Origin: Gammaproteobacteria bacterium
GTDB taxonomy: Bacteria > Pseudomonadota > Gammaproteobacteria > SZUA-152
Length of the DNA stretch: 36,523 bases
Assembly: GCA_022627515.1 (NCBI GenBank)
Contig: JAKEGK010000108.1
Location: 1-36,523 of the forward strand
Direction of reading: 5' to 3'
Part shown: in pieces, positions 7,907-9,293 of the stretch
Numbering within the stretch: position 1 is the stretch's first letter
Layout of the letters: each line of letters starts with the position of its first letter
Made by a program: the position numbers and the translations under genes
The notes under the pieces: generated by a model
What the model was told of the DNA's origin: nothing
Database searches by the model: none
The model's input: the letters and a program-made list of their open reading frames with translations, nothing else

Positions 7907-8050
7907 ATGGAAGATGAACAACCAACACAGCAACAACAACCGGAAGCGCCAAAAAAACCGGGGATATTGAACACGCTTATGCTCAAGTTTCTCATGCTGA
8001 TTGTATTTGCGTTAATGATCGGCATGTGCAGTATCAAATATATTAGTTGA
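7907..8050 (+). CDS. Small single-pass membrane protein (47 aa)
   Basis: ATG to TGA encodes 47 residues: a polar Gln/Pro-rich head (MEDEQPTQQQQPEAPKKPG) followed by one hydrophobic helix of about 20 residues (about 24-43) and a short tail KYIS. The composition change from Gln-rich head to clean membrane helix argues for a real gene. The ribosome-binding site is weak (AGG about ten bases upstream). It stands alone between the ssb terminator and the cytochrome gene. Function unknown; it may be a small subunit or regulator of a membrane complex. Confidence 0.5.
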   Translation: MEDEQPTQQQQPEAPKKPGILNTLMLKFLMLIVFALMIGMCSIKYIS

Positions 8051-8297: not shown

Positions 8298-9293
8298 ATG
8301 GAGCCGCGCGGAATTGTTGCATCGATAATTGGTTTCAGCTTGTTCATTGGATTTGCGGCTAACGGTTTAGCTGCGCCTGGTACCGGCCAGGGTATTGGCC
8401 GGCAGATGAATAGTATTTCTGATTCCTACCACAATCTTGGATCGACCAACATACGGCCTACGACACCCAATGGCGGTACACCCGCAAACCACAGCCTTGA
8501 TACCGCGGAGATCCGCGTCTTTTGCCATACGCCTCATGGTGGCGATAATACGGCGGTGGTTCCTATCTGGAACCGAAGATTAATTGATCCCGCGGTTTAC
8601 ACACGATATTCCTCTCTGGGAACTTCCACCTTTGACGCAACGGAGGCGCCCGTTGGCTCGGTTACCATCGCCCGTTTGTCGTGTCATGCTGGCACGCAGG
8701 CTATCGATTCGGTCATCAACGCTCCCGGGTCCGGCAAATTTAATTCTACCGGGCAGCGAATAGGCAATAATTTTGCGGGGGGAGATGTTTGCATGATTGA
8801 GCCTTGGCTGTGTACGGGAATAGTGCAAAATCTTGGCCTGGATTTATCCAACGATCATCCCGTGAGTATGCAATATGGCGGAGGTGGTGTTAATGTCCAA
8901 AATCCAATGGGCCCGACAAATGATCCGGATTTTGTGGCGGCAGGTAATCCTAAACCACATCCGCAAGCGTTCACGTTAAATAATATGAATGCGCCGACCA
9001 ATGCCGCAATTACAAGACTATGGTGGGTAGAACGATATGCAGAATCCATTTCCAGCGGCAACCGTGACCGCACCGACATCATTTTATATACGCGGTTGGA
9101 GGGCGAAACTGATGTCGCCGGTGGCGAGCAGCCGTTTGTGGAATGCGGTTCCTGTCATGACCCGCATAACGTGGACAATCCAACGTTTCTGCGGGTGTCC
9201 AACGGCATTCCATCAGCATTGGAGCTGGATTTTCCTAATGCGATTGCTCCGGATCATGGCAGCGCGCTTTGTCTAACGTGTCATATCAAATAA
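8298..9293 (+). CDS. Exported doubled-CXXCH cytochrome c-like protein, two haem sites altered
   Basis: The 331-residue protein begins with a signal peptide (hydrophobic residues about 8-24, cleavage near GLAA). Its layout matches the doubled CXXCH motif family: VFCHTPHGG, an IWNR segment, a YSSLGTSTFDA segment, LSCHAGTQA, NDHPVSMQYGG, then CGSCHDPH (C283-H287) and CLTCH (C325-H329). The last two haem sites are complete. The first two read RVFCH (R73, C76, H77) and RLSCH (R126, C129, H130): the first Cys of each is Arg, encoded by CGC and CGT where TGC and TGT would give Cys. ATG 8298 is preferred over GTG 8292 because AGGGA lies ten bases before it. A periplasmic electron-transfer role is inferred. 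Confidence 0.8.
   Translation: MEPRGIVASIIGFSLFIGFAANGLAAPGTGQGIGRQMNSISDSYHNLGSTNIRPTTPNGGTPANHSLDTAEIRVFCHTPHGGDNTAVVPIWNRRLIDPAVYTRYSSLGTSTFDATEAPVGSVTIARLSCHAGTQAIDSVINAPGSGKFNSTGQRIGNNFAGGDVCMIEPWLCTGIVQNLGLDLSNDHPVSMQYGGGGVNVQNPMGPTNDPDFVAAGNPKPHPQAFTLNNMNAPTNAAITRLWWVERYAESISSGNRDRTDIILYTRLEGETDVAGGEQPFVECGSCHDPHNVDNPTFLRVSNGIPSALELDFPNAIAPDHGSALCLTCHIK

Follow-up and report, generated by a model that had tools for sequence, protein, structure and literature searches.

The cytochrome gene studied here raises the question of what has become of the haems of a multihaem protein when two of its haem sites carry an arginine in place of their first cysteine. The gene lies in a stretch of 36,523 nucleotides (contig JAKEGK010000108.1 of assembly GCA_022627515.1, Gammaproteobacteria bacterium), the whole of which we call the window, and its features are given in Table 1. 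A sequence-only reading had claimed that the first cysteine of haem sites 1 and 2 is replaced by an arginine through a TGY-to-CGY difference, that the second cysteine and the histidine of both sites are kept and that sites 3 and 4 are intact. We confirmed each of these statements. Codons 73 and 126 of the assembly sequence, counted from the ATG at 8298, are CGC (8514-8516) and CGT (8673-8675), each one transition away from TGY, and the paralogue in the same genome has TGT at both. The altered motifs, RVFCH and RLSCH, keep the second cysteine and the histidine and match the XXXCH pattern of single-thioether c-type cytochromes, while sites 3 and 4 read CGSCH and CLTCH. The window protein has two CXXCH and two RxxCH motifs, whereas four CXXCH motifs are expected of an OmcE-type tetrahaem cytochrome. 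Its 331 codons are open and show none of the signs of a pseudogene that we looked for (stop, frameshift or lost start).

Table 1. Features of the cytochrome gene, in positions of the window.
Feature	Position	Strand	Remarks
OmcE-like tetrahaem cytochrome paralogue gene	8298-9293	+	331 aa, ATG start, frame intact
Putative Sec-type signal peptide, residues 1-26, MEPRGIVASIIGFSLFIGFAANGLAA	8298-8375	+	read by eye
His45, conserved (family motif xHN/xHD), kept	8430-8432	+	near-invariant in 95 homologues; aligns with a His in 7tfs
Haem site 1, R73-V-F-C76-H77 (RVFCH)	8514-8528	+	CGC where the family has Cys
H80, kept, next to haem site 1	8535-8537	+	
Haem site 2, R126-L-S-C129-H130 (RLSCH)	8673-8687	+	CGT where the family has Cys
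D131A (CHDG to CHAG), first residue after haem site 2	8688-8690	+	third near-invariant column departed from
Variable loop with two new Cys	8790-8813	+	C165 (8790-8792) and C172 (8811-8813); absent from the paralogue
His187 of NDHP, conserved, kept	8856-8858	+	
Haem site 3, C283-G-S-C286-H287 (CGSCH), intact	9144-9158	+	
H290, kept, next to haem site 3	9165-9167	+	
Haem site 4, C325-L-T-C328-H329 (CLTCH), intact	9270-9284	+	

The window protein matched the doubled CXXCH family (Pfam PF09699, E 8e-6, and NCBIfam TIGR01905), and a sequence search of the PDB gave OmcE (7tfs; phmmer 3.8e-11) and 9yuq, a 'putative multiheme cytochrome c', as its only solved relatives. A profile built from 66 relatives matched 7tfs with an E value of 1.5e-34 and 9yuq with one of 2.2e-34, the homology covering the regions that bear the haems, and in both cases the four haem sites and eight histidines were aligned in the same order. 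These eight conserved histidines (H45, H77, H80, H130, H187, H287, H290 and H329), four of them proximal ligands and four distal candidates, are all present in the window protein. These alignments identify it as a homologue of OmcE, the tetrahaem nanowire cytochrome of Geobacter sulfurreducens, which polymerises with histidine ligation between subunits (PMC9473688). Unlike OmcE and 9yuq, the window protein has two RxxCH sites and longer inserts.

We then aligned the window protein with 95 homologues, including the paralogue of its own genome, which is 74% identical to it. All 95 homologues begin both site 1 and site 2 with a cysteine, and the window protein alone has an arginine there, so that arginine as a trait of a clade was ruled out, as was the case, raised in the sequence-only reading, of a non-haem subfamily in which arginine is usual. 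Searches with DNA patterns for the arginine forms of the two sites, which demand the flanking residues and let more divergent cases escape, matched the source genome alone, for site 1 among the 369 genomes of the class and for site 2 among the 24 genomes of the family. Among the 46 columns of the alignment that are near-invariant (at least 98% conserved), the window protein departed at three (C73R, C126R and D131A), all located in haem sites 1 and 2, while the paralogue departed at none. The earlier claim that the family sequence around the sites is kept held for F75, T78, P79, H80 and G81 and for the rest of the family-invariant residues, among them the eight histidines, but not for the aspartate that follows site 2. 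When three changes were placed at random over the 46 columns, the probability that both members of this equivalent pair of motif positions were hit was 0.003, and that of a double strike on any of six pairs of this kind was about 0.017. That both replacements are arginines was less telling, since the probability of arginine is about 0.18 for each one-step replacement of a cysteine. Taken together, these comparisons indicate a real change that is confined to haem sites 1 and 2.

Comparison of the two copies present in the genome showed that they differ in their surroundings. At all 13 loci checked in other genomes, the OmcE-like homologue belongs to a run that consists, in this order, of an NHL protein, the OmcE-like cytochrome itself, a PPIase, a beta barrel and a pair of small c7-type cytochromes, all or most of which is present within the reach of each contig. 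The paralogue (G000:C4:12414-13418), which has CXXCH at all four sites and is devoid of extra cysteines, sits in this conserved cluster, unlike the window copy, which is an orphan with ssb on one side and, on the other, a PilZ gene and then pcnB. Within the bases examined, no cytochrome of the OmcE-like family was found beside pilZ/pcnB in the relatives G002 and G004. In a maximum-likelihood tree, the window protein was the sister of the own-genome paralogue (support 98/96), with G002 outside. Tree and surroundings together indicate that the window gene is a relocated, within-lineage duplicate of the own-genome OmcE-type cytochrome. The sequence-only reading had noted neither this origin nor the orphan position nor the kinship with OmcE, and D131A and the two extra cysteines had also escaped it. 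More distant copies of the OmcE-like cytochrome are also held by the source genome, and a 935-residue protein of the paralogue's contig (L140 4998-7805, G000:C4:22997-25804) has an OmcE-like tetrahaem domain at its start, beyond which come numerous further CXXCH sites and repeats rich in glycine and methionine (GGGMGGGG). Around the window copy, no RNA family was found in the region, and the matches of a promoter scan were no more numerous than in shuffled sequences. The interval between ssb and the cytochrome contains a small open frame (7908-8050) whose product is rich in Q and P at its start and has a single hydrophobic segment (MEDEQPTQQQQPEAPKKPGILNTLMLKFLMLIVFALMIGMCSIKYIS). In five relatives (G001, G002, G006, G011 and G013), the stretch that matches the window pcnB is interrupted in frame by a TAA or TGA codon.

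The source genome is an assembly of 312 contigs, which leaves room for an error of base-calling, assembly or binning as the origin of the arginine codons; a transcript edited back to cysteine would be a related case. The place of the window protein beside the copy of its own genome does not support a foreign or misbinned contig, and an error would have to account for three separate haem-site changes within a coherent frame in which 201 of the 293 aligned codons differ from the paralogue, 136 of them synonymously. C-to-U editing has not been established for bacterial mRNA, which we also counted against an explanation of this kind. We give it hardly any credence.

The two duplicates differ at 67% of their fourfold sites, so that dS is saturated (by the NG86 method it is also undefined for most pairs). 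With a branch length of 0.34 against 0.083, the window copy has evolved at about four times the pace of its sister. A codon model with free branches rejected an omega of 1 on the window branch (-3810.5 vs -3801.4, 2dlnL 18). When the two duplicates were given equal neutral time, omega was 0.047 for the window copy and 0.019 for the sister, values that are rough because saturation of dS makes exact omegas unreliable, and an omega of 1 was worse by 89 log units (2dlnL about 179). Old neutral decay since the duplication was thus rejected by both codon models, which indicate that the protein is under purifying selection. The earlier statement that the paired change is unlikely to be random decay agrees with this rejection and with the confinement of the departures from near-invariant columns to sites 1 and 2.

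A decay that started recently is a different case, in which a normal tetrahaem duplicate would have been maintained for most of its history and would lately have lost sites 1 and 2 at the onset of pseudogene formation. The longer branch of the window copy, its orphan position, the empty slot in the relatives G002 and G004 and the intact paralogue, which would cover the function, are all consistent with such a history. If sites 1 and 2 had been free since the duplication, the probability that C76, H77, C129 and H130 were all kept by chance would lie between about 0.08 and 7e-6, according to the length given to the branch, while a release of the haem sites limited to a neutral distance of up to about 0.3 makes the kept residues unremarkable. 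A release confined to the end of the branch is the main remaining weakness of the view that the paralogue is maintained, and the evidence comes from one genome. On the other side, the frame of the window copy has neither stop nor frameshift, and the three lost near-invariant residues are all in sites 1 and 2 rather than scattered along the protein. We consider a recent decay somewhat unlikely.

The cysteines located outside the CXXCH sites bear on whether haems 1 and 2 have been lost from a protein that is otherwise kept. In the aligned region, 90 of the 95 homologues have no non-haem cysteine and the other five have exactly two, while the window protein has four, two left over at the altered sites (C76, C129) and two new ones (C165, C172). 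In the five homologues (L012, L043, L089, L106 and L113) the two cysteines always come as a pair, in loops whose positions vary. A local frameshift was rejected as the origin of C165 and C172, the DNA alignment being fitted by an in-frame change and an insertion. The even numbers of non-haem cysteines hint at disulfides, and a two-haem cytochrome whose fold is held together by disulfides between C76, C129, C165 and C172 would also be consistent with the D131A change beside site 2 and with bacterial maturation systems, which are not known to handle single-cysteine sites. Such a protein would, however, have kept all eight histidine ligands as well as F75, T78, P79, H80 and G81. An AlphaFold model made with 66 sequences was too poor to judge the distances between cysteines (mean pLDDT 55, and no meaningful match to it in the PDB), haem-rich loops modelled without cofactor being badly suited to the method. 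The sequence-only reading had listed haem loss with retention of the fold among its options; an old loss is disfavoured because the histidine ligands are retained, and we judge the disulfide-held two-haem protein distinctly improbable.

The remaining question is whether a haem can be attached at an RxxCH site. On the contig of the paralogue (C4) lie a ResB/CcsA-like pair and a Ccm set, the latter recognised from CcmF- and CcmC-like matches and, by eye, from CcmA-, CcmB-, CcmE- and CcmG-like frames. Both follow the nanowire-type cluster (L140 10141-12230 and 13759-19213), so that parts of two maturation systems adjoin there. Single-cysteine attachment, another option of the sequence-only reading, is disfavoured by published work on these bacterial systems. 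The Ccm system of Escherichia coli reportedly attaches no detectable haem to single-cysteine variants (Allen 2002, cited in PMC4158909 and PMC6204919), and CcsBA attached no haem in vitro to single-cysteine peptides with a serine substitution (PMC8112865). Yeast HCCS, on the other hand, matures AXXCH (PMC4158909), and the mitochondrial cytochromes c and c1 of Euglenozoa (AAQCH and FAPCH) naturally have a single thioether (PMC8262978). Like sites 1 and 2 of the window protein, these cytochromes have lost the first cysteine and kept the second cysteine and the histidine, but they are eukaryotic mono-haem proteins with an alanine or a phenylalanine, for which kinetoplastids have a dedicated synthase, KCCS, whereas the window protein is bacterial and has an arginine at two sites of a tetrahaem protein. 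According to PMC8262978, the pyridine haemochrome peak lies at 550 nm with two thioethers and at about 553 nm with one. Our literature search, which covered open-licence papers, found no case of a single-thioether haem in a naturally occurring multihaem protein of bacteria.

Over recent decay, haem loss with disulfides and artefact, we favour a maintained OmcE-type paralogue in which haems 1 and 2 are still ligated by two histidines with at most one thioether. We hold this explanation tentatively, at somewhat less than an even chance, the remainder being left to possibilities not listed here. From the sequence we infer the export, haem occupancy, bond number and electron-transfer role of the protein as follows. 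The Sec signal peptide would export it, and haems 3 and 4 would be attached normally at their intact CXXCH sites. In the first doubled CXXCH pair, formed by sites 1 and 2, the proximal histidines, the distal candidates and the second cysteines would remain available after the replacement of the first cysteine by an arginine, and both pockets may still hold a bis-histidine haem, bound non-covalently or by no more than one thioether (C76, C129). The arginines and the loss of Asp131 would alter the environment of the haems, probably their potential or their retention. The full combination, an OmcE-type nanowire subunit that is one maintained protein with two haems, each bound through one thioether or through histidine ligands only, is in our view unlikely. 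If it is true, a maturation route would be needed that the bacterial systems described so far reportedly lack.

In multihaem cytochromes that have more than three haems, every haem is reported to be of the c type, the thioether tethers offsetting the entropic cost of haem packing (PMC11936953). A natural pair of single-cysteine sites and an intact, 74% identical sister in one genome offer a ready-made comparison for the role of the first thioether. The window protein would test whether bacterial Ccm or CcsBA acts on XXXCH in a natural context, and its RxxCH pair with all histidines kept would test the number of cysteine bonds that nanowire-type haems need. If the proposal is true, a subunit with two single-thioether haems could tune or end-cap cytochrome filaments.
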